Of a stretch of DNA of 64,000 bases, positions 9,285 to 23,813 are shown in pieces; position 1 is the stretch's first letter; each line of letters begins with the position of its first letter. The notes below the pieces were generated by a model. The model saw only the letters and a program-made list of their open reading frames with translations. It was not told the origin of the DNA and made no database searches. The stretch lies in contig CAMWJC010000002.1 in the NCBI GenBank assembly GCA_947174495.1, positions 17,679 to 81,678 of the forward strand. Reading direction: 5' to 3'. The position numbers were made by a program, and so were the translations under genes. Source of the stretch: an uncultured Lachnospiraceae bacterium (GTDB taxonomy: Bacteria > Bacillota > Clostridia > Lachnospirales > Lachnospiraceae).

Positions 9285-10718
9285 TTATCTCAGTTTCACA
9301 TTAACTGTAGCTGTTTTGGTTTCACCACTTACTGTCTCATATGTGATTACAGCTTCTCTTGTTGCGTCACTCGTATATTTTGTTGTATACAATGTTATAT
9401 ATGCTGAATCAAATGTTATCACACCATTTGTATCGCTAGCCTGAGTCCAGCCATTCTTTCCCGTGAAAGCATTGTAACCATCAGCGAGCGTTCCCGTATA
9501 ATCCATTTCTATTTTAGTTATAGATGCAAGTGCATTATCACCAGAACCAATTGTATAACTAATAGAACCAACTTCGGATCCTGTCGTGAAAGAAGGAGGC
9601 ACCTGTGATTTCAATCTAACATTAACTGTAGCTGTCCTTTCAGAACCACCTACCGTCATATAAGTGATTATAGCTTCTCTGGTTGAATCATTCGGGTAAG
9701 CTTTCACATATGCTGCTATATATGCTGAATCAAGTGTTATCAGGCTGCCTGTATCTTCTGCTGCCTTCCAGCCACCCTTTCCGGTGTAAGCATGGTAACC
9801 ATCAACAAGTGTTCCACTAATATCCATCTCAACTTTGCTAATAGAAGCAATCGCATCCATAGCACTATTACCACGCTTATAGCTAATTGTACCTGCATTA
9901 GCCCCTGCCTTAAATACAGGATTCGGATTATTATACAAAGCTCCTGTACCCGCATCAGGAGTTGCGCCAGTCGGTGCATTATCATTGCTATACACAGCAG
10001 TAATTCTGATACCCTTAGTAAGCTTTGTCCAATCTGCACCTGCATTCATGGTTCCGCCAAAGGTAAATGCAGTAATACCCTTACCAGCTGCCGCAAGACT
10101 CTGTAATGTAAAATCGTCTGCTACATTGTTTCCGTTTGCTGAACTCAGGTTGATCGTCCCATCATATACAGCTTTTTCAAGCAAGAAACTTACCTCATTC
10201 TCTCCCGGCATTAAGTCCATTGCTGCAGTATCTGCTGTCGCCATTGTCACATCTGCAAGATCTGCACCAGTTGTTGTCAAATCTGCCGAATTGCCACCTA
10301 CCTTTACTTCGTCAGTATCCGCCGGAACGACTTGCAGATTAAGTACATAATCATCCGGAGATGAAGGTGTTGCTACAGCAGTTGCGCTTACAAAATTAAT
10401 TTTATCTTCATTCAAATCCTCTACATTAAGAGTAACTGTTATCATCTTATCCTTTGTACTCTTATTGATAATACCATAATTTTTGGATACAATCTGAGCA
10501 GTGGTATCACTTGTACCATCACCATCCACATCTACTTTAAGCCCATCAGGGTTAAAAGCCACTACGAAAGTGGTTGGAACTACTACGTTTGTTACATCAT
10601 AAGAATAAATCGGTGCATCTACAGACACTTCCTGGTCTGCTGCAAAGGTTGTCATGGACATTCCCATTACCATGGATGCACTTAAAGCTACTGCTAACGC
10701 TTTTTTCATCTTTCTCAT
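9285..10718 (-). CDS. Exported surface/fibre-like protein with two C-terminal tandem domains
   Basis: Signal peptide MRKMKKALAVALSASMVMGMSMTTFAADQ; two ~105-aa repeats; RBS AAGGAGG. Confidence 0.7.
   Translation of the reverse strand: MRKMKKALAVALSASMVMGMSMTTFAADQEVSVDAPIYSYDVTNVVVPTTFVVAFNPDGLKVDVDGDGTSDTTAQIVSKNYGIINKSTKDKMITVTLNVEDLNEDKINFVSATAVATPSSPDDYVLNLQVVPADTDEVKVGGNSADLTTTGADLADVTMATADTAAMDLMPGENEVSFLLEKAVYDGTINLSSANGNNVADDFTLQSLAAAGKGITAFTFGGTMNAGADWTKLTKGIRITAVYSNDNAPTGATPDAGTGALYNNPNPVFKAGANAGTISYKRGNSAMDAIASISKVEMDISGTLVDGYHAYTGKGGWKAAEDTGSLITLDSAYIAAYVKAYPNDSTREAIITYMTVGGSERTATVNVRLKSQVPPSFTTGSEVGSISYTIGSGDNALASITKIEMDYTGTLADGYNAFTGKNGWTQASDTNGVITFDSAYITLYTTKYTSDATREAVITYETVSGETKTATVNVKLR
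9288..9923 (-). repeat. Intragenic tandem duplication of an Ig/X2-like domain (9288-9599 and 9600-9923)
   Basis: PPSFTTGSEVGSISYTIG...YNAFTGKNGW...ITFDSAYI...REAVITYETVSGETKTATVNVKL aligned with NPVFKAGANAGTISYKRG...YHAYTGKGGW...ITLDSAYI...REAIITYMTVGGSERTATVNVRL. Confidence 0.9.
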
Positions 10719-12947: not shown

Positions 12948-13247
12948 TTACTGCACAATAGTTAAAATATCCGCAAATCCGGTCATTGCAAACACTTCCA
13001 TATTCGTCTCGTTTACATGCGTAAGCTCCAGCGATCCCTGCTTTGTCATGACCTTCTGCAGCGCCAGCAAAACCCTGAGCCCTGCGCTGGAAATATACTC
13101 TAATTTCTCCATATCCAAAATCAGCCTGTGGTATCCCTCAAGATGCTCTTCAATATGTTTTTCCAGCTGTGGCGCCGTTATAGTATCCAATCTGCCCTCA
13201 AGGCAAATAATTGTTTTTTCTGTTGTTGTCTGTTCTGTAATCTTCAT
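12948..13247 (-). CDS. STAS-domain anti-anti-sigma factor
   Basis: MKITEQTTTEKTIICLEGRLDTITAPQLEKHI...RLILDMEKLEYISSAGLRVLLALQKVM. Confidence 0.92.
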   Translation of the reverse strand: MKITEQTTTEKTIICLEGRLDTITAPQLEKHIEEHLEGYHRLILDMEKLEYISSAGLRVLLALQKVMTKQGSLELTHVNETNMEVFAMTGFADILTIVQ

Positions 13248-13272
13248 ATTTGTTTCCTTCCTTTCCAATTGT

Positions 13273-13692
13273 TTAAATCAGTTTTTTGATCAGAGTTATT
13301 TGATTTTCTCCGTTCTGACAGGAATATTGCAGATCATCTGTCATTTTCTTTACCATGTGGATCCCCAGGCCTCCGATGGGCCGCTGCATCACATCTACAG
13401 AAAGGTCCGGATCTGCCTTACACAGCGGGTTATAGGGAATTCCATGATCTGCCAGTCGAATCCGGGCTTCTCCGTCCAGCCACTCCAAAGTAACTGCGAC
13501 GGCCTTTTGGGCCTCCTTCTCTTTTGGGTATGCATACTTAGTCACATTGACAAACATTTCCTCAAATGCAATTTTTAAGGCAGTTAATTTCTTAGAATCA
13601 ATTTCGTCAAAGCAATAAAATGTATCTATTTTTTCTAGCAGCTCATACAAATGCTCCTGTTTTGCTCTTCCTTCCCACTTTTCCTGCTTCAT
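13273..13692 (-). CDS. HATPase anti-sigma factor kinase (RsbW/SpoIIAB-like)
   Basis: ALKIAFEEMFVNVTKYAYP (N box) and RLADHGIPYNPL...RPIGGLGIHMVKKMTDDLQY. Confidence 0.9.
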   Translation of the reverse strand: MKQEKWEGRAKQEHLYELLEKIDTFYCFDEIDSKKLTALKIAFEEMFVNVTKYAYPKEKEAQKAVAVTLEWLDGEARIRLADHGIPYNPLCKADPDLSVDVMQRPIGGLGIHMVKKMTDDLQYSCQNGENQITLIKKLI

Positions 13693-15482
13693 TCTCTTAT
13701 CCCTTCATAGCAAAGTGCCAGCATGGTAATATCGTCAAACTGACAAACGCCTTCTGCAAAGCTATCCAGCTCATGCTTGACTCCGTCAAGCAGCTCCTTT
13801 AGCGGCTTCTCCCTGTAATTGTTTAAAGTTTCCAGAAGCCGTTCTTCTCCGTACATTCTTCCCTTTTGGTCATTTGCCTCTGTCACGCCATCCGTATACA
13901 AAAACAGGCTCTCGCCCTTTTCCAATACCCGGGTTCCTGATGGGAAACGCATATCCCCAATGCCTCCCAGCACAAAACCATGCGCCGTATCCGGAAACCA
14001 CTCAAAACCGCCTTCTCTCGTACCGAGCAGCGGGCGGGTATGACCGGCATTGCTGTACAAAAGCTGTCCGGTATTAAGCTCCAGAATCCCCAGCCAGGCA
14101 GTCACGAACATGCCGGAGGCATTGTTTTCACATAACTGATTGTTGACGTGATAAAAAATATCCCATGGCTTTTCTCCCAGCTTTGCCTGATTCATAAGCA
14201 GGGTTCTGGCAACCACCATAAAGAGCGCAGCCGGTACGCCTTTCCCGGAAACATCCGCCATCAAGAAGCCGAGATGGTTCTCATCCACCAGAAAAAAATC
14301 ATAAAAGTCACCGCCTACCTCCCTGGCCGTGTACATAGCCGCATATATTTGGAACTCTTTTCTCTGCGGATATGCAGGAAAAACATTGGGGAGCATGTCT
14401 GTCTGAATGTGAGAGGCCACCGATAATTCGGCGCTGATCTTTTCCTTTTCCGCCGTTACTGCTGCCAGATTCTGCACATAGGCGGCAATATCCCGGGTCA
14501 TCTTCAAAAAGGCTTCCGAAAGAATCTGCAGTTCATCTCCGGTACGGATCTGTTCACAGATTTCCTTCATTTCGTTTGAGGCCGTATGCTGAAGATGATC
14601 CGCAGCGGCAAATTTCTTCATGCTTTCCGTCAACAAGTTCAAAGGATTTGTGATAAAGCTTTCCACGTATTTTAATAACAAGAGTGTACATGCAAACAAA
14701 ATATGAATTCCGATTCCCGTCACACGATAGACCAGTTTCCACCTTTGCAGGGAATCATAAGCCGTATGGCTTCGCAGCAGGGCATAGGTCCATATTCCCA
14801 GCGCTGCCACAAAAAGCACGGACAGTATCATAAATCCGGCAACTGCCCTTGTCCCAATCGTCAGCTTTCTGCCCCCGCGCTGTTCCCTCAAACAAGAAAG
14901 AAAAATCAAGATTGGAATCCCCAGCAGTATTGCAAAATCAAAGTTATTAAAGAACAAAAAGAGTACATCAGAAAGATCGACATTCTGCCCCGCCGATGCA
15001 AAGGTTAATGCCAGCATTGGCGTAATGACTGCCGAATCCGTCAATATAATCATACAATACTTCAGGATTTCGGGAACCGAATCCATCTTGGGTAATGTGT
15101 CCTGCCGTTCTGTCAGCCTGCCTTTCTCTGCTTTTCCGATTTTCCCTGCTTTCCTGCTTTTTCCTGCCGCATGCCATAACCAATAAGGAAGATAGGCATA
15201 CAAAAAGTTGATTCCAAATCCCGGAATCCAGACATTCGCAGGAGTATGGCTTACCAGAACATCCACAAGCACATTTGCCAGAGACGTCCCTAGGGCTCCC
15301 GCCCCTCCCCATAGAATTCCGAGAATCGGCGGAATTGCATTGGAAGGGCGCACCTCTGAATAGGGAAGAATCTGCATCAGCAGCCGAAAGGGAATATTAA
15401 ATGCCCAAAATACCAGTACCGACTTCAGCAATAGGCGCCAAAAGCTCTGTCCGCTCTGCTCATCAGAATTTCCTTTTATCAT
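13689..15482 (-). CDS. Membrane-anchored SpoIIE/RsbU-type PP2C phosphatase with HAMP-like linker
   Basis: IQTDMLPNVFP...AREVGGDFYDFFLVDENHLGFLMADVSGKGVPAALFM...LFLYTDGVTEA; RBS GGAGGACAT before ATG 15482 (ORF opens at 15632). Confidence 0.9.
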   Translation of the reverse strand: MIKGNSDEQSGQSFWRLLLKSVLVFWAFNIPFRLLMQILPYSEVRPSNAIPPILGILWGGAGALGTSLANVLVDVLVSHTPANVWIPGFGINFLYAYLPYWLWHAAGKSRKAGKIGKAEKGRLTERQDTLPKMDSVPEILKYCMIILTDSAVITPMLALTFASAGQNVDLSDVLFLFFNNFDFAILLGIPILIFLSCLREQRGGRKLTIGTRAVAGFMILSVLFVAALGIWTYALLRSHTAYDSLQRWKLVYRVTGIGIHILFACTLLLLKYVESFITNPLNLLTESMKKFAAADHLQHTASNEMKEICEQIRTGDELQILSEAFLKMTRDIAAYVQNLAAVTAEKEKISAELSVASHIQTDMLPNVFPAYPQRKEFQIYAAMYTAREVGGDFYDFFLVDENHLGFLMADVSGKGVPAALFMVVARTLLMNQAKLGEKPWDIFYHVNNQLCENNASGMFVTAWLGILELNTGQLLYSNAGHTRPLLGTREGGFEWFPDTAHGFVLGGIGDMRFPSGTRVLEKGESLFLYTDGVTEANDQKGRMYGEERLLETLNNYREKPLKELLDGVKHELDSFAEGVCQFDDITMLALCYEGIRE

Positions 15483-16815
15483 ATGTCCTCCTTCGTAAAT
15501 AGTCCTTCTCCGGATGGGGCTCGGGATACTTATCCCATAATCCGTACAAGGTGCACCACCTCTGAAAAAGCCGCTTTTCATCAAGACCCGGGATTGCTTC
15601 GACGCCGGCCAGATACATTCGTTTTTCTCCATTACTTTCGCAGATCCAGAATCCGCACAAAAGCATTTCTGTAAAAATCAGATCTATCATACTGACAGTA
15701 AGACTTCCTCCTGTTTCCGAGCAGAAATTTAGCGGCATCCCATCTGCCAGCAGATAAATCTGTTTTGTTTCCTTTCTCTCACCAGAAAACATCGGATAAG
15801 AAAACTTCCCCTGTCTGCTCTCGAATTTATTTTGCTCCACATAGCGCAGAAATGCCTGAAATTCTGTCTGTTTAGAAGATCCGCTTGCCAGGTACAGCCG
15901 CCCTGCCGGGGACTTGCCAAATGCTTTCAGCATCTCCAGCGTAAAAGCCTCTTCACCCGTCATCCCAAGTACAATCGTGTCCACAGAAAAACACAGTTTA
16001 TCCACGCATTCTACTACACAGCAGTTTTCCTCTTGTGCCAGCTTCCGGATGCGCGGATCGGTATCATACACCAATAGCCGTACCTTTCTATTTTTCAGTA
16101 ACTTCGCTGCTGCGCGCCCCAACACTCCATACCCCAAAAGCAGTACCTGATGAAATTCCAAAAAGGTATTCTGCTCATACAGCATCCGGTCCAGTTCCCT
16201 TAAGATCCTGTTCACAATAAAAAGAGCTTCCACATCCATCTTTAAGTCTGACCGGGCGACACTGACGCAGGGAAATTCATATCCATAAGTTCCGTAATAA
16301 TATCGGTCAAGCCGGGTTCCCGAGGTCGTCTGTTCCACGCTTCCTGCTATTTTTCCTTTAAGAGCCGGATACCTTTGTATCCACTGATGCAGGTGCTGGC
16401 AGACGTACCCTCCGTCTTCCAGCACCAGAATCCGCTGTCCTCTGCCAATTGCCGGAAGCAGTTCTCTTTGCAGAATAATCTCCAGTATTTGACTGCATAC
16501 TGTCTGAAAGTCCCCTTTGCAAATTCCTATTTTCCTCTGCTCCCGATACAGAAAAAAGTCATCTTGCTTCCATTTCCCATAATAACAGGCATAATCAGGA
16601 GCAAACCCGCCGCAATCAATGGATATCCCTGTATGATAAGGTACGCCCCAAAATACAAGCTCCCCAAACAGCTCTTTCAATGCCTCATTAAAAATCAGAG
16701 TATTATCCATAAAATGATTGATGTGAAATACCGTAACAGACTCTTTTAATCCATGGTGTCCCTCCTTAAGCTTTTGCATCTCCTGCTCCAATAAATACAT
16801 TCTTCCTGTTTCCAT
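15463..16815 (-). CDS. Divergent S-adenosylhomocysteine hydrolase-like, NAD-binding protein in the RiPP operon
   Basis: GSVEQTTSGTRLDR (cf. SAHH EETTTG), QVLLLGYGVLGRAAAKLLKNRKVRLLVYDTDPRI, YLLADGMPLNFCSETGGSLTVSMIDLIF (cf. SAHH LLAEGRLVNLAAAEGHPSxVMDxSF). Confidence 0.65.
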   Translation of the reverse strand: METGRMYLLEQEMQKLKEGHHGLKESVTVFHINHFMDNTLIFNEALKELFGELVFWGVPYHTGISIDCGGFAPDYACYYGKWKQDDFFLYREQRKIGICKGDFQTVCSQILEIILQRELLPAIGRGQRILVLEDGGYVCQHLHQWIQRYPALKGKIAGSVEQTTSGTRLDRYYYGTYGYEFPCVSVARSDLKMDVEALFIVNRILRELDRMLYEQNTFLEFHQVLLLGYGVLGRAAAKLLKNRKVRLLVYDTDPRIRKLAQEENCCVVECVDKLCFSVDTIVLGMTGEEAFTLEMLKAFGKSPAGRLYLASGSSKQTEFQAFLRYVEQNKFESRQGKFSYPMFSGERKETKQIYLLADGMPLNFCSETGGSLTVSMIDLIFTEMLLCGFWICESNGEKRMYLAGVEAIPGLDEKRLFQRWCTLYGLWDKYPEPHPEKDYLRRRTYDKRKF

Positions 16816-16817
16816 CC

Positions 16818-18998
16818 TTATTCCTCACACGGTATCTGCTGCCGCCGGACTAATTCTGCAAAAAATCCGTTCTTAGAAACCAGCTCCTCATAGCTGCCAT
16901 CCTCAATAATCCTGCCTTGATCCAGCACCAGGATCCGGTCACACTCCTGAATCGTAGACAACCGATGTGCAATGACGATCCGTGTACATTTCATCCGTGC
17001 AAGGGAATCTGCAATCTGCTTTTGTGTGATATTGTCCAGAGCCGATGTTGCCTCATCAAGAAGCAGCAGTCTGGGCTTTGGCGCAACCGCTCTTGCGATC
17101 ATAAGCCGCTGCTTCTGCCCGCCGGAAATTCCTCCGGCGCCTTCACTTAATACGGTATGCATTCCCATGGGCATATTCCTGATATCCTCTTCAATTCCCG
17201 CAATGCGGGCAGCTTCCCATGCTTCATCCATAGTAAGCTGCGGGGCCGAGACGGTAATATTAGAATAAATGCTGCCACTAAACAATTTCCCGTTCTGCAT
17301 GACAACACCAATCTGCCTGTGCAGGCTGTTCTGATCCAATTTCAAAATGTCTTTTCCATCATAATAGACCGCACCCGTATCCGCCTGTTCAAACCCCAGC
17401 AGAAGGCGCATCAGGGTTGATTTTCCGCATCCTGTCTTTCCAACAATCGCAACATATTGCCCCTGCCTGATCTTTAGGCTCAGGTCATCCAAAATCAAAG
17501 GCCCATCCTCCGCATAGCGGAACGACACATGATGAAACTCCACGTTTCCTGAGATGTTATGTACCATTTCATTTAAAGCTCCTGTCTGCGGCACTGCGTC
17601 CAATATAGGCTTTGCCAGTTCAAAAACAGGGCCTATTGTTGAAAGCGATGTCAGACTTGTCGTTAACGCCAGTATTGCTCCGCTGACCATGCCAAAAGCT
17701 GTGTGAAATGCCACATATTGAGGAACCTGTACTCCCTTATTAAGGCATATCCAATAAAGATACAGCGTACCAAATATGGAAATTACCGGTATCAATGTAT
17801 TGCGCATTTTATAAAGCAGTGGCGGATTATATGCCGCATCTGCTTCCTTTTGATATTTTCCGGCCCACTTTGCAAAAACCCGCTTTTCGCATCCTGCGAC
17901 TTTGATCTTTTGAATTCCATTGATCAGGGAAACAACCATGCTCTGTACCTTTGTCCCTGCATACAGCCTTTTTTGTAAAAACTCTGTCTGCCCCAGCATT
18001 CCCAACGCCGCAACTGCCAGCTGAACGGTAAAAATAAGCAGAGAAGGAAGAATAAGTTCTTTCCTGATTTGAAATATTTGAAAAATATACACAAAGGAAA
18101 ACAGCGCCGTCATTCCCGTTCCCAGAAGATTTGTGCAAAGTACGCCGCAAATCCCGTTCAGACACAGAATTCTTTCCGTCAATTCTCCGGAACTGTACGT
18201 CCGGAAGAAATCAGCGGGCATATTTAATACTCGTCCAAACACTGCCGCTGACAAAGCCGCTTCCATTTTGTATTGTATCCCCTGTAGCAGCATATTTCTC
18301 ACCGCTTCAAATAAAAAGACCGATATTGCTGTCCCTGCAAGCAGCCCGCCCACGGAATAAACCAGCATGACCTGTCCTGTGGGAATAATCTGTGAAAACA
18401 ACAGCTGCGTCATAAATGGCAGAATCATACCCATCAGTGTTGCTGACAAACCGGCAAGACTCAGCTTCCACTTCTCTTTTTGCGGTACGCTTTTCCACAA
18501 AAAGAAAATCACATCCTTTTTTGTCAGTGCCTTCTGGGGCAGCGGTGAATAGAAGCAGATTGCTTCCCGGCTGATTTCTCCTGCATTCTTTTCATCAACT
18601 CGTACTTTTTGCCCTTCTTTGGTCTCGTAATAATATCTTCCCAGACGGTCCGGCAGAACAGCGATCATCTCCTGGTTCCGGTTCCTGGTCAGCACCGGGG
18701 AATCCAGATCCTTCCACCAGTCCCCCTTTAATGTCACATTCCGATACATCAGACCGATCTGATTCTGCAGGATTTCCAGCTGTCTTTCCACCGGAATATC
18801 ATCTTTTATAAAATCGCTTTCCATGTGATAGAAATTGCATATTTTTATTAATGCATTTTTACCCGGGTCACTATATTCTTCCGTAAATGTTTTGTCTGTT
18901 TTTTTGTCAATTACAGCAGCCAGCGACCAGTATGCATACGCCAATTTATCCTGTTCCTGCTGTCTGCGTTCTTTAATCTGTGTGTCAAACCATCCCAT
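16818..18998 (-). CDS. NHLM-type bacteriocin export ABC transporter, permease/ATPase subunit
   Basis: Walker A GKTGCGKSTL, ISGGQKQRLMIARAV, LLLDEATSALD; six-TM core; long N-terminal non-peptidase extension. Confidence 0.88.
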   Translation of the reverse strand: MGWFDTQIKERRQQEQDKLAYAYWSLAAVIDKKTDKTFTEEYSDPGKNALIKICNFYHMESDFIKDDIPVERQLEILQNQIGLMYRNVTLKGDWWKDLDSPVLTRNRNQEMIAVLPDRLGRYYYETKEGQKVRVDEKNAGEISREAICFYSPLPQKALTKKDVIFFLWKSVPQKEKWKLSLAGLSATLMGMILPFMTQLLFSQIIPTGQVMLVYSVGGLLAGTAISVFLFEAVRNMLLQGIQYKMEAALSAAVFGRVLNMPADFFRTYSSGELTERILCLNGICGVLCTNLLGTGMTALFSFVYIFQIFQIRKELILPSLLIFTVQLAVAALGMLGQTEFLQKRLYAGTKVQSMVVSLINGIQKIKVAGCEKRVFAKWAGKYQKEADAAYNPPLLYKMRNTLIPVISIFGTLYLYWICLNKGVQVPQYVAFHTAFGMVSGAILALTTSLTSLSTIGPVFELAKPILDAVPQTGALNEMVHNISGNVEFHHVSFRYAEDGPLILDDLSLKIRQGQYVAIVGKTGCGKSTLMRLLLGFEQADTGAVYYDGKDILKLDQNSLHRQIGVVMQNGKLFSGSIYSNITVSAPQLTMDEAWEAARIAGIEEDIRNMPMGMHTVLSEGAGGISGGQKQRLMIARAVAPKPRLLLLDEATSALDNITQKQIADSLARMKCTRIVIAHRLSTIQECDRILVLDQGRIIEDGSYEELVSKNGFFAELVRRQQIPCEE

Positions 18999-19009
18999 AC
19001 GATCACCTC

Positions 19010-21172
19010 CTATCCTGTTGTAATCAGTTTTGTGTAAACACCATTATTTCTCATTAATTCCTCATGGGTCCCCCGCTCAATGACCTCTCCGCCATCCAGC
19101 ACAATAATCTGCGTACAGTCTCTGATCGTAGAAAGTCTGTGCGCCACAACAACACTTGTGATTCCTCTCTGACGGACTGCTTCCATAATTGCAAATTCTG
19201 TTTTGGCGTCCAGTGCGGAGGTTGCCTCATCCAGAATTGCAATCGTCGGATCCTGTGCCAGCACTCTTGCGATTTCAAACCGCTGACGCTGACCACCGGA
19301 AAAATCCCGCCCCCCTTCGCTCATCTCATATCCATATCCTTTCTGCCTTTGTAAAATGTCTTCGTGAATCTGTGCATCCCGGGCCGCAAGGATCATTTCA
19401 TAGTCCGCAATTGTGGAATCCCATAATTTAATGTTGTTCTCAATACTGTCCTCAAAAACCGTAATCTCCTGATCTACCATGGAAACCGATCCATGAAATA
19501 CTTCCTTGGGAATTTGTTCCCTTGGCTTTCCGTCAAATAAAATTTCCCCTTCCCATGGCTCATAGAGTCCGGTAATCAGCTTTGCGATCGTTGACTTTCC
19601 ACAGCCGGAAAATCCTACCAGCGCCACCTTGTCACCCGGATTGACTGTCAATGTAAAATTTTTTAAAAGAGGAGGTGCAATGCGTGAATAACCGAAAGTC
19701 ACGTTTTTAAATTCGATTTTTCCGGTAAGTTTTTCGTAATTCTTATTTTCCTCCAAAGGTTCTCTGCCCTCGGATAGATCTTCTTTATAATGCATGACAT
19801 CCTGGATCCGTTCCATGGAAGTCCGCATTTCCTGAATACTTCTTCCGGCATCCAAAAGCCCTTCCACCGGCGACATAAACTGGATCATCAGTGCCTGAAA
19901 AGTCAGAAGCATTCCTGCAGAAAACATACCCTTCATAATCAAATACGCTCCCATGACCAGAATAAGGCCGTCCGACAAGTCCTCTACCAGCTGCGGCAAT
20001 CCGTTCAAAAATCGAAGTTTCTTTACTTCCTGAATTTTGGCGTTATGGGCTGTTGCCTGATACCCTGCCCATTGACCAAAGAACCCTGCCTCTGCACCGG
20101 ATGCCTTGATAGTTTCAATCATATCAATGCCCGCAAGTGTAGCTGCATTCAGCTTTCCCTCATACTGCATCCGGATACGTGTAGTTTGAATCCGCTGTCC
20201 GGCCAAGCTCTTTGCAATTATCAGATTGAGCAGTACTGCCAATACTCCGATTACGGTCAGAACAAGACTGTAACGTATCATGATGACAAAATAGAATACT
20301 AATAAGCAGGCGTTCACACACACCGGTGCCATCTTGGAAATCAGGGTTTCCGCTACACTGTCATTTAACTTCTGCCGTCCTGCCAAATCCCCTGCCATAC
20401 GCTGGTAAAAAAAGTTTATCGGCAGATGTAAAATATGCTGTAGAAACGACACGTTTGATGTTATTGAAAGTTTCCCTTTTATTTTGTAAAGATAAATTTC
20501 ATTGAGAATGCCAATAAGTAAGCGCAGAATTCCTGTCAGAAGCAGGCAGATTAAAAAGCCGGATATCCATGACTGGTTTTCCCCTTTCAAAAGCCGGTCT
20601 GCAAAAATCCGTTCAAATACCGGTGTCACTATGCTGACAAAGGATGTTAATAGGGCCGCTGCCATGGCAAATACCATCAAAAGTGTGCTGCCATGCAATC
20701 GATGCCTTACGAATGTAAGCACGCTTTCCCGTTTTCCCTGCGGCACAAATCCCTGCCCCGGAGAAAGCTCCATGCAAATGCCGGTATAAGAGCGCTCGAA
20801 CTCTTCCATCTCCACCTTCACCATCCCCCTTGCAGGATCGTTCAAGACCGCATATTTCCCTGAGAACCCGCACAACACAACAAAATGATTAAAATTCCAG
20901 TGGATGATTGCCGGAAAGTGCACTTTGGTTTTCAGAGATTCTGTCTTGTATCTCCATGCTTTTGCCGTTAATCCATAGCCCCTTGCGGCATGTAAAATAT
21001 TAGCGGCATTGCTTCCGTCCCTTGATACTCCACAGTCTTCACGGACCTGTTCCAAAGGAATCCACTTTTTGTAATAAGCCAGCACCATTGCCAGGCTTGC
21101 CGCTCCACACTCCAATACCTCCATCTGCATGATAACGGGGACTTTTACAACATGTTTCCTTTTCATATACAA
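19010..21172 (-). CDS. NHLM-type bacteriocin export ABC transporter, C39 peptidase/permease/ATPase
   Basis: VPVIMQMEVLECGAASLAMVLAYY (C39 Cys), HFVVLCGF His, LNDPARG Asp; GFSGCGKSTIAKL; FSGGQRQRFEIARVLAQDP. Confidence 0.95.
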   Translation of the reverse strand: MYMKRKHVVKVPVIMQMEVLECGAASLAMVLAYYKKWIPLEQVREDCGVSRDGSNAANILHAARGYGLTAKAWRYKTESLKTKVHFPAIIHWNFNHFVVLCGFSGKYAVLNDPARGMVKVEMEEFERSYTGICMELSPGQGFVPQGKRESVLTFVRHRLHGSTLLMVFAMAAALLTSFVSIVTPVFERIFADRLLKGENQSWISGFLICLLLTGILRLLIGILNEIYLYKIKGKLSITSNVSFLQHILHLPINFFYQRMAGDLAGRQKLNDSVAETLISKMAPVCVNACLLVFYFVIMIRYSLVLTVIGVLAVLLNLIIAKSLAGQRIQTTRIRMQYEGKLNAATLAGIDMIETIKASGAEAGFFGQWAGYQATAHNAKIQEVKKLRFLNGLPQLVEDLSDGLILVMGAYLIMKGMFSAGMLLTFQALMIQFMSPVEGLLDAGRSIQEMRTSMERIQDVMHYKEDLSEGREPLEENKNYEKLTGKIEFKNVTFGYSRIAPPLLKNFTLTVNPGDKVALVGFSGCGKSTIAKLITGLYEPWEGEILFDGKPREQIPKEVFHGSVSMVDQEITVFEDSIENNIKLWDSTIADYEMILAARDAQIHEDILQRQKGYGYEMSEGGRDFSGGQRQRFEIARVLAQDPTIAILDEATSALDAKTEFAIMEAVRQRGITSVVVAHRLSTIRDCTQIIVLDGGEVIERGTHEELMRNNGVYTKLITTG

Positions 21173-21179
21173 ACTCCCC

Positions 21180-21689
21180 CTAATTCATAAGAAATGTAAT
21201 CGGCTTCACCTCATCTACCGTTATTACTATGGAAGCCATTTTCTCTGTCTCAAACTGCTCCGTAGTCCGGATCACCAATTCATAACTATACATGTCGGAA
21301 AGCAGATTCTCTGCAATCCAATCCGAATGCAGTGATTCCCTTAATTCCGCCCGCGAATAAGGCTGATCACTGACCGATTCCACATATCCTGTCACAATGG
21401 TTCCATCCGGCAGTGTTCCGTTCACTGCGCATCCCTCCAGTCGCAAATAGTCCGCATCTGATGGAATGAAACAACGTATCTGTCCGCCCTCCCCGGTGCA
21501 GCCCTTTACCTCCAGCGTTTCCGGCAAAGTGCCTGTTATGCCAAAGACAATTGCCGTCACCATAAATACCGTCAACGCAAGCAATACCACCCAGACTCCC
21601 GGACGTGATGCTTTTATGTAAGCATCGAGCTGCTCCGGCGACTCGGCATAATCTAAACTTTCCTGTCGAAAAATACTTTTTTGACTCAT
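21180..21689 (-). CDS. Short NHLM system secretion-type (HlyD-like) membrane protein
   Basis: Single TM SRPGVWVVLLALTVFMVTAIVFGITGTLPETLEVKG; operon position with the C39 exporter. Confidence 0.65.
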   Translation of the reverse strand: MSQKSIFRQESLDYAESPEQLDAYIKASRPGVWVVLLALTVFMVTAIVFGITGTLPETLEVKGCTGEGGQIRCFIPSDADYLRLEGCAVNGTLPDGTIVTGYVESVSDQPYSRAELRESLHSDWIAENLLSDMYSYELVIRTTEQFETEKMASIVITVDEVKPITFLMN

Positions 21690-21769: not shown

Positions 21770-22084
21770 CTAATATAACCCTAAGATAATGCAGCCGCCA
21801 TTACTATCAATTTCACCGATCACTGTGCAGCCTGCGTTTGAAAAAAAGCAGCCTGCCGAAACACCTCCTGCAACCTTGGCTACCTCTTCCTCTGCCAATT
21901 CACCTTCCGACTGTTCAAAATCCTCTTTTGAGATTTCAAAACCAAACTTTTCCCCGAGCTTTATGACCTCTTTTTTAATCTCCTCAGGCTTCATCCCTCT
22001 GGCATTCTCATTCGCTTTCAAAAGGGCTTCTTTAATTTCTTTGTTTCCTTCTGCTGCTTCATAAAATCTTTTTAAATTATTCAT
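21770..22084 (-). CDS. RiPP precursor 2, Nif11/NHLP-like leader, core VSAGCFFSNAGCTVIGEIDSNGGCIILGLY
   Basis: 104 aa; acidic helical leader ending KVAGG; 30-aa Cys/Gly-rich core; next to rSAM and C39 exporter. Confidence 0.88.
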   Translation of the reverse strand: MNNLKRFYEAAEGNKEIKEALLKANENARGMKPEEIKKEVIKLGEKFGFEISKEDFEQSEGELAEEEVAKVAGGVSAGCFFSNAGCTVIGEIDSNGGCIILGLY

Positions 22085-22104
22085 TTTTTTGTCCTCACTT
22101 TCGC

Positions 22105-22416
22105 CTATTTATTGTATCGCTTTGTTCCATTTTGAGTCCCTCTTCCTGTGGAAGTCGGATACAGGCCGTATATGGAAACAATAAGACCTGCAACCGACAC
22201 CGGATCCACTGCACCGCCGGAAACAGCTTTCAGCTGCTCTTCGCCCAATGCTTCCGATGTAAAATCTTCTGCATTTAACTCAATAGAAAACTCCTGCTCA
22301 AAACGCTGCAGTGCTTCCGGCATTTCTTCTTTCGGAAGCTCTGCAATTTTCCGAAAAGTTTTCAGAGCCTTGGGATTATCTTCCAAAAGCTTTTCCAGTT
22401 TTTCTTTACTGTTCAT
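22105..22416 (-). CDS. RiPP precursor 1, core AVDPVSVAGLIVSIYGLYPTSTGRGTQNGTKRYNK
   Basis: 103 aa; leader ends EEQLKAVSGG; core lacks Cys; 2 nt downstream of the rSAM gene. Confidence 0.85.
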   Translation of the reverse strand: MNSKEKLEKLLEDNPKALKTFRKIAELPKEEMPEALQRFEQEFSIELNAEDFTSEALGEEQLKAVSGGAVDPVSVAGLIVSIYGLYPTSTGRGTQNGTKRYNK

Positions 22417-22418
22417 TT

Positions 22419-23813
22419 TTATCCCTCCTTTCCTGCTTGTTCTACGGTATCCTTTATTAACATTTCATAACCGCCATAAAAAAAAGTACATAACACCTGC
22501 GCATGGCCATATAATCCCTTATTCTCCATCAGGCTCATAGCCCTGCATCCTCCTCTGCATTTTTCCAAAAAACTGCAGGTACGGCATTTTGTATCCTGTT
22601 CCAAGACCTCTGCTGTCCTCATATTGGCCAGCTTGAAAAAGGGATGATCCGGCTTTTGGTAAATCCCGCTAATTGTTTCCTCCCGCAGATTCGGCATTTT
22701 CCCCTCTACCTCAGTATCTGTCATGGAGGCGCAGGGAAGCAGCGTTCCATCCGGCAGTAAGTATGGCTGTACCCGGCAGGTAGTGCAGCACAATTCCTTC
22801 TCCGGCGCAAAGCTTCCCTTCCTGACATAAGGAGAAAACCATGTTTTCACCTCTCCCTTAGGACATGCGAAGAAACCGTCAAGCTGTAACGAAAACGGAG
22901 CGCTATCCGCTATATAGCTCTTAATCAGCTCCAAATAGGTGTTGTATAGTTCCTCCGTTTCAATCCTTCGCTGTATCTGTTCCTTCCACTTTCCCGCCGG
23001 AAAGATTAAAGATGTTTTCCAGTAATCAACAGAAAGCTCCTTTAGTAATGCATAGGTTTCCAGTAAATTTCCGATATTTTTCTCATAAAGTGCAGTCTCC
23101 ACCATAACCGTAAATCCATGCTTCTTTAGCAGACGGATTGCCGAAACCGCCTCCTGCTGTGCACCGTTTTTTCCCCGAAGCCAGTCGTGTCCGCCCACAC
23201 CGTCAAAGCTAAGTACAAACTGAGGATTGATACCTATCTTTTTCAATCCCGCCAGAATCTCTTCGGTGAGCAGCAGTCCATTTGTGTAAATCTGGGTGAT
23301 TGCTATTCCCTTTTGCTGTAAGTATCCCAAAAGTATCCGAATATCTTCCCTCACAAAGGGTTCTCCTCCGGTAATAGAAACTGCCGCCACATTGGCCTGT
23401 TCCATCTGATCAATGATATTCATACATTCTTCTGTAGACAGATCCCTGTATTTATAGTCCGGCGCACTCATATAACAGTGCCTGCATTTCAGGTTACATT
23501 TCCCCGTCACAGACCAGTGAACACTGCGGAGATAATGATTGTCGGCCTTTCGATATTCCTGAATTGCCTGAATTGGAGACGGATTTTGAGAAAAGATCAC
23601 TCTGCTGTTCTGCTCAAGCTTCAGCAACATATCCTGCTGTCTGGGTGTCAAAAACACCATCTCCATATCCAGTTTTCCATTGCAAAATTCCAGTAAAAAA
23701 AATATTTCTCTATCCAGTGCTTCCATCCTGCCGTTCTCCCGGTTAAGCAGTCCATAAGGCATATCCCAGAATCCGCGCAGAGCATAATTGTCCCTTAATC
23801 TTGCATAACTCAC
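22419..23813 (-). CDS. Radical SAM/SPASM peptide maturase with N-terminal PqqD/RRE-like region
   Basis: VTGKCNLKCRHCYMSAP (CxxxCxxC), SITGGEPFVREDI, C-terminal SPASM cysteines CCTTCRVQPYLLPDGTLLPCAS...CRTCSFLEKCRGGCRA; GTG start with ggaaaggag RBS. Confidence 0.93.
   Translation of the reverse strand: MSYARLRDNYALRGFWDMPYGLLNRENGRMEALDREIFFLLEFCNGKLDMEMVFLTPRQQDMLLKLEQNSRVIFSQNPSPIQAIQEYRKADNHYLRSVHWSVTGKCNLKCRHCYMSAPDYKYRDLSTEECMNIIDQMEQANVAAVSITGGEPFVREDIRILLGYLQQKGIAITQIYTNGLLLTEEILAGLKKIGINPQFVLSFDGVGGHDWLRGKNGAQQEAVSAIRLLKKHGFTVMVETALYEKNIGNLLETYALLKELSVDYWKTSLIFPAGKWKEQIQRRIETEELYNTYLELIKSYIADSAPFSLQLDGFFACPKGEVKTWFSPYVRKGSFAPEKELCCTTCRVQPYLLPDGTLLPCASMTDTEVEGKMPNLREETISGIYQKPDHPFFKLANMRTAEVLEQDTKCRTCSFLEKCRGGCRAMSLMENKGLYGHAQVLCTFFYGGYEMLIKDTVEQAGKEG

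Follow-up and report, generated by a model that had tools for sequence, protein, structure and literature searches.

Sactipeptide systems such as those of SkfB, AlbA, ruminococcin C and streptosactin are among the closest described counterparts of the locus analysed here, with which they share a radical SAM maturase carrying auxiliary clusters, Cys donors and acceptors that include glycine. Gly acceptors, as well as rings arranged as nested hairpins or in line, are known in this class (PMC8326336; streptosactin, PMC13361665). Sactipeptide leaders, however, have 8–29 residues (PMC8326336), a descriptive rather than a chemical criterion, whereas those found here are of the Nif11 type and about 70 residues long (68 and 74). 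The present system also differs in its NHLM exporter, in its repeated C-x-C-x3-G-x-G or C-x3-G units, and in its maturase, with which none of the curated NCBIfam sactipeptide-maturase models reaches its cut-off (StsB, 96.6 of 625 bits; AlbA, 71 of 850 bits). The PapB/freyrasin ranthipeptides (CX3D) show the same i to i+4 spacing, similarly repeated in-line or nested units, and an enzyme with ten Cys and identical auxiliary-cluster spacings (PMC10470005, PMC9413430). Yet their acceptor position holds Asp or Glu rather than the Gly (or Asn) seen here, leader and exporter are different, and the PapB model matches our maturase only weakly. Nif11/NHLP clusters with radical SAM genes have been reported from anaerobes, Eggerthella lenta and Desulfitobacterium among others; the section that Letzel et al. 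(2014, PMC4289311) devote to them describes, as here, VAGG/VSGG leaders of 66–85 residues, a peptidase transporter and radical SAM proteins, but specifies neither a motif for the core nor any pairing rule or chemistry. In the two-component sactibiotic thuricin CD, two peptides are likewise encoded together with radical SAM enzymology, but the passage on it in PMC12093266 gives two radical SAM enzymes for the two peptides, whereas here there is one enzyme and a Cys-free partner. Proteusins and spliceotides have in common with the locus a long leader, radical SAM modification and a GG cleavage site; unlike them, it has a SPASM enzyme, no conserved XYG and no epimerase architecture.

The locus lies in a 64,000-nucleotide stretch of DNA from an uncultured Lachnospiraceae bacterium (the whole stretch is called the window below), whose genome is that of a gut-type Clostridia member. 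On the minus strand, one operon contains a radical SAM/SPASM enzyme gene, then two precursor ORFs with leaders of about 70 residues ending in GG, followed by genes for a short HlyD-like protein and for two subunits of an NHLM exporter:

22419..23813, minus strand: radical SAM/SPASM peptide maturase, 464 aa (Pfam Radical_SAM 1.3e-22, SPASM 8.9e-4)
23574..23813, minus strand: first ~80 residues of the maturase, probably an RRE/PqqD-like domain for leader binding (strand/helix order in the model, Foldseek)
22105..22416, minus strand: precursor 1, 103 aa, with a leader of ~68 aa ending in VSGG and a core of 35 aa
22108..22212, minus strand: core 1, AVDPVSVAGLIVSIYGLYPTSTGRGTQNGTKRYNK, residues 69–103, after GG, net charge +3, no Cys
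21770..22084, minus strand: precursor 2, 104 aa, with a Nif11-type leader of 74 aa ending in VAGG and a core of 30 aa
21773..21862, minus strand: core 2, VSAGCFFSNAGCTVIGEIDSNGGCIILGLY, residues 75–104, after GG, three Cys
21836..21850, minus strand: unit 1, CFFSN, predicted link Cys79–Asn83 (+4), C-x-x-[ST]-N kept in three orthologues
21815..21829, minus strand: unit 2, CTVIG, predicted link Cys86–Gly90 (+4), kept in three orthologues and following the family rule
21779..21793, minus strand: unit 3, CIILG, predicted link Cys98–Gly102 (+4), kept in three orthologues and following the family rule
21180..21689, minus strand: short HlyD-like secretion protein, 169 aa (TIGR03794 4.9e-9, residues 17–68)
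19010..21172, minus strand: NHLM peptidase (C39)/permease/ATPase exporter subunit (TIGR03796, 907 bits, cut-off 853)
16818..18998, minus strand: NHLM permease/ATPase exporter subunit (TIGR03797, 712.5 bits, cut-off 709.4)

The two cores stand at the C-terminal ends of two minus-strand ORFs, each after GG. An earlier note on this DNA had placed them correctly and had read them accurately: AGCF, AGCT and GGCI (three GC units) in core 2, no Cys but an IYG in core 1, and a GLY tripeptide in both. The precursor 1 gene is separated by 3 bases from that of the enzyme, the sole modification enzyme found in the operon; as in sactipeptide loci, a radical SAM/SPASM maturase stands beside a Cys-containing core. 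Both exporter models score above their cut-offs, and the same short HlyD-like form (133–201 aa) is present in related loci. The precursor 2 leader matches PF07862 above the gathering score (2.1e-5) and TIGR03798 just under the cut-off (9e-7), which the leaders of its relatives pass; a search of the same genome for Nif11 leaders gave no significant match at any other locus. The precursor 1 leader is still matched by an HMM from which all precursor 1 sequences had been left out (2.4e-6, E-value scaled to 1000 sequences); judged by this match, it is related to the precursor 2 leader but more distant.

These observations are best explained, with a fair degree of probability, by a two-peptide radical SAM RiPP operon with a Nif11 leader and NHLM export, in which core 2 receives sactipeptide-like Cys(i)–residue(i+4) thioethers and core 1 most likely stays unmodified. 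The maturase, probably with its N-terminal domain, would bind the long Nif11-type leader that precursor 2 carries. A substrate Cys would be taken up at the auxiliary cluster for which just three protein ligands are conserved, hydrogen would be abstracted from the residue at i+4, and the thioether would be closed, three times on core 2. The product would carry three in-line five-residue rings (Cys79–Asn83, Cys86–Gly90 and Cys98–Gly102). As a bond to Gly is possible at the alpha carbon only, the links of units 2 and 3 would be of the sactionine type; this placement of the Cys sulfur on the alpha carbon we infer from the conservation of Cys-x3-Gly. The C39 domain of the exporter would cleave after GG and export both peptides, and the pair may serve an antibacterial function, acting like a two-component bacteriocin. 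Against this explanation, the +4 position of unit 1 is taken by Asn instead of Gly, and the runs of Gly could serve to form turns rather than as acceptors.

The enzyme itself fits such chemistry. It contains the SAM-cluster binding motif C106-x3-C110-x2-C113 and a SPASM region with C343-x12-G-x4-C361, C410-x2-C413-x5-C419-x3-C423 and C442; these ten Cys are invariant in 44 relatives, among which no further fully conserved Cys was found near C343. For 343-361 and 410-413-419-423-442, the spacings are identical in PapB (352-370 and 408-411-417-421-440), where C352/C370/C421 are the three AC1 ligands, C408/C411/C417/C440 belong to the other cluster, and the CX3D substrate thiol is engaged by AC1 with its three Cys ligands (PMC10470005). 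By the same spacings, our maturase has a three-Cys AC1 (C343/C361/C423) and a four-Cys AC2 (C410/C413/C419/C442). Its AlphaFold2 model (pLDDT 94.9) was compared with solved structures using Foldseek, and the nearest folds were SuiB (best), SkfB and CteB, with PqqE also similar; by profile comparison, SkfB was the first match. SkfB is a sactisynthase and CteB a thioether synthase, both of them RiPP maturases, but SuiB makes a C–C bond, so the fold alone does not fix the bond type. The alignment to SuiB and CteB extends over the whole length, and the N-terminal ~80 residues probably form the leader-binding RRE/PqqD-like domain.

A first scan with the single enzyme as query found no relatives, whereas a profile scan of 85,488 species genomes with a two-row enzyme alignment yielded 80 loci; viral contigs gave two weak matches only, and phages and plasmids none. 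Both precursors are conserved together with the enzyme in three genomes, so that the closest-relative test of core conservation compares three precursor pairs: those of the window, of L081, a Lachnospiraceae MAG (radical SAM protein 56% identical, gene order the same as far as the contig extends), and of L082, which is the same as L073, a Clostridiales MAG of another family (42% identical). The precursor 1 orthologues lie at 9376–9723 in L081 and within 2668–3186 in L082/L073; a search for precursor 1 in 60 relatives gave nothing convincing. Adjoining the orthologous pair in L082 (3579–5910) are a third, Cys-free Nif11-type precursor and two more small radical SAM proteins.

The three core 2 sequences share the invariant pattern GC-x-x-[ST]-NAGC-x3-GE-x-D-x-x-GGC-x3-G-x-Y, the varying residues being mostly hydrophobic. 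Since it is conserved in two other genomes, this Cys/Gly frame can be regarded as beyond chance. The proposal of thioethers on core 2, made in the earlier note, is supported: all Cys are kept in both orthologues, Cys-x3-Gly recurs throughout the family and the cluster spacings are PapB-like. The comparison asked of homologous cores, GLY against GC, came out in favour of the core 2 Cys, with GLY conserved in neither core. The C-terminal part of core 2 reads CIILGLY in the window but CFVIGAY and CIIVGAY in the orthologues, with the final Tyr conserved, and SIYGLY of core 1 is replaced by DVYGFI and DIIGFI; the Gly is kept in all three, while the Tyr and aromatic positions are not conserved.

GLY is the sole tripeptide common to both cores, and in 26% of composition shuffles the two have one or more tripeptides in common. 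We therefore rejected it as a meaningful site: it is at chance level and lost in both orthologous core pairs, and the shared ending is, on this comparison, best taken as a coincidence. With GLY kept in neither core and the xYG Tyr missing from one of the three core 1 sequences, both the suggested chemistry at a shared xGLY site or Tyr and the suggested splicing lose their basis, which removes two leads that would have misdirected bench work.

Across the wider family, 144 representative cores beside related enzymes were compared. Their main motif is C-x-C-x3-G-x-G, usually present three times. In the CxC units, Gly is found at +4 in 147 of 151 and at +6 in 142 of 151, against 37 expected, while the single-Cys units show clear Gly enrichment only at +4 (54 of 247, 28 expected). 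In the window-like set, 21 of 30 units have Gly at +4, against 21% in shuffles, a count that none of 2000 shuffles attained. Where a unit has both Cys0 and Gly+4, Cys-2 and Gly+6 are present or absent together (140:7 versus 10:43, p=1e-26), the strongest covariation of all offsets tested, the next best (+3) having p=1e-8. The influence of gene relatedness was reduced by the use of representatives and by a within-precursor test, in which nine mixed precursors from seven loci showed agreement in 27 of 28 units, unmatched in 20,000 permutations. The simplest structural reading would be nested pairing, with Cys0–Gly+4 inside Cys-2–Gly+6. Several units that lack Cys-2 are the last of their core, and general decay of a unit, often the C-terminal one, possibly also removes Cys-2 and Gly+6 together, so the covariation is no proof of a bond. 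In the window, units 2 and 3 keep the inner pair only and unit 1 has Asn at +4; core 2 would be a single-rung form with two Cys–Gly+4 and one Cys–Asn+4 links. The window enzyme falls in a clade with those of L081, L082, L083 and others (support 98–99), whose cores are mostly of single-Cys units. Cores of the C-x-C-x3-G-x-G type accompany most of the other enzyme branch, and C-x-x-D-[YF]-x-C is seen in one sub-clade.

We tentatively propose, as a reading with slightly less than even odds, a wide Nif11-leader RiPP family extending from Clostridia to Synergistota, Spirochaetota, Actinomycetota and others. Within it, a single family of SPASM enzymes would install Cys-to-Gly sactionines by the code Cys0–Gly+4, with an outer Cys-2–Gly+6 link in CxC units, to give strings of nested mini-hairpins; core 2 of the window would be the single-rung form, leaving the cell together with a Cys-free partner. 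If so, Nif11 leaders and NHLM export would be joined to sactipeptide-like chemistry on a repeat-based scaffold of small rings, and a valid pairing rule would allow the thioether topology of gut and rumen peptides of this large, uncharacterised family to be deduced from their sequences. The literature searched, which lay mostly outside subscription journals, contained no description of a Cys-x3-Gly or CxC-x3-GxG code.

A second class of cores, with C-x-x-D-[YF]-x-C units and often an aromatic residue at +4 after Cys, occurs near the enzyme in L104, L148, L151, L152, L154 and L158, and in this class the spacing is possibly unchanged and the acceptor a different one. Beside enzymes with CxC cores there are also small proteins with an (N/S)AAG end followed by a short acidic tail (L032, 7526–7816; L049, 590–862; L059, 10528–10713; L122, 11104–11325).

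The thioethers of core 2 might instead be ranthipeptide-type links to other acceptors or non-alpha carbons, for example at Asn83, Glu91 or Asp93, with the glycines acting only as turn formers. In favour of this, the CX3D links made by PapB, an enzyme with identical Cys spacings, join Cys to the Asp beta carbon (PMC9413430), all three orthologues keep Glu91 and Asp93, and Asn occurs in unit 1; but the +4 residues of core 2 are Asn, Gly and Gly rather than the Asp or Glu of a CX3D/E motif, the CxC units of the wider family have Gly and not Asp, Glu or Asn in 97% of cases at +4 and in 94% at +6, and Cys-2 covaries with Gly+6, which makes this alternative improbable. Still less probable are Cys residues left alone by the enzyme and engaged in disulfides or metal binding after export: regular C-x-C pairs could bind a metal, but each of the three orthologous core 2 sequences has three single Cys, an odd number, no modification enzyme other than the maturase was found in the operon, and this enzyme family is linked to Cys-rich cores throughout.

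Core 1 could also be a substrate of the same enzyme at a non-Cys site, by epimerisation, C–C or Tyr chemistry, as its gene is so close to that of the enzyme, the pair is co-conserved in three genomes and its leader still matches the family profile. We regard this as unlikely, but as the least unlikely of the alternatives, given that the Tyr and aromatic positions vary (YGLY, YGFI, IGFI) and that Cys-free cores of varied sequence, with no common motif, recur beside other family enzymes. Epimerisation, raised in the earlier note, has become less likely in particular, since proteusin epimerases lack SPASM (PMC8326336) and have a C-terminal RRE, whereas our enzyme has the complete set of SPASM Cys and its extra domain is N-terminal. 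Excision of tyramine at IYG by a splicease appears hardly credible: the xYG tripeptide of the window is matched by VYG in L081, but L082 has IIG, so that no XYG site is conserved; XYG splicing is the work of a two-protein complex, PlpXY (PMC10533398), and no PlpY-like partner is present among the annotated operon genes; and the precursors of this enzyme family are dominated by Cys/Gly motifs. The cationic core 1 is thus probably an unmodified partner, having no Cys and variable aromatic residues, with dissimilar Cys-free cores near related enzymes, and the strict companionship of the two precursors suggests a two-peptide product.

A 450-aa protein with a weak match to NAD-binding dehydrogenases is encoded directly after the exporter (15463–16815), with no homologue in the 18 related loci first surveyed. 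Further downstream, at 12948–15632, lie a SpoIIE/RsbU-type phosphatase (13689–15632), an RsbW-like ATPase (13273–13692) and a STAS protein (12948–13268), which constitute a partner-switching module linked to the peptide system; such genes are again found close to the enzyme or to NHLM exporters in L036, L041, L078, L079 and L083.
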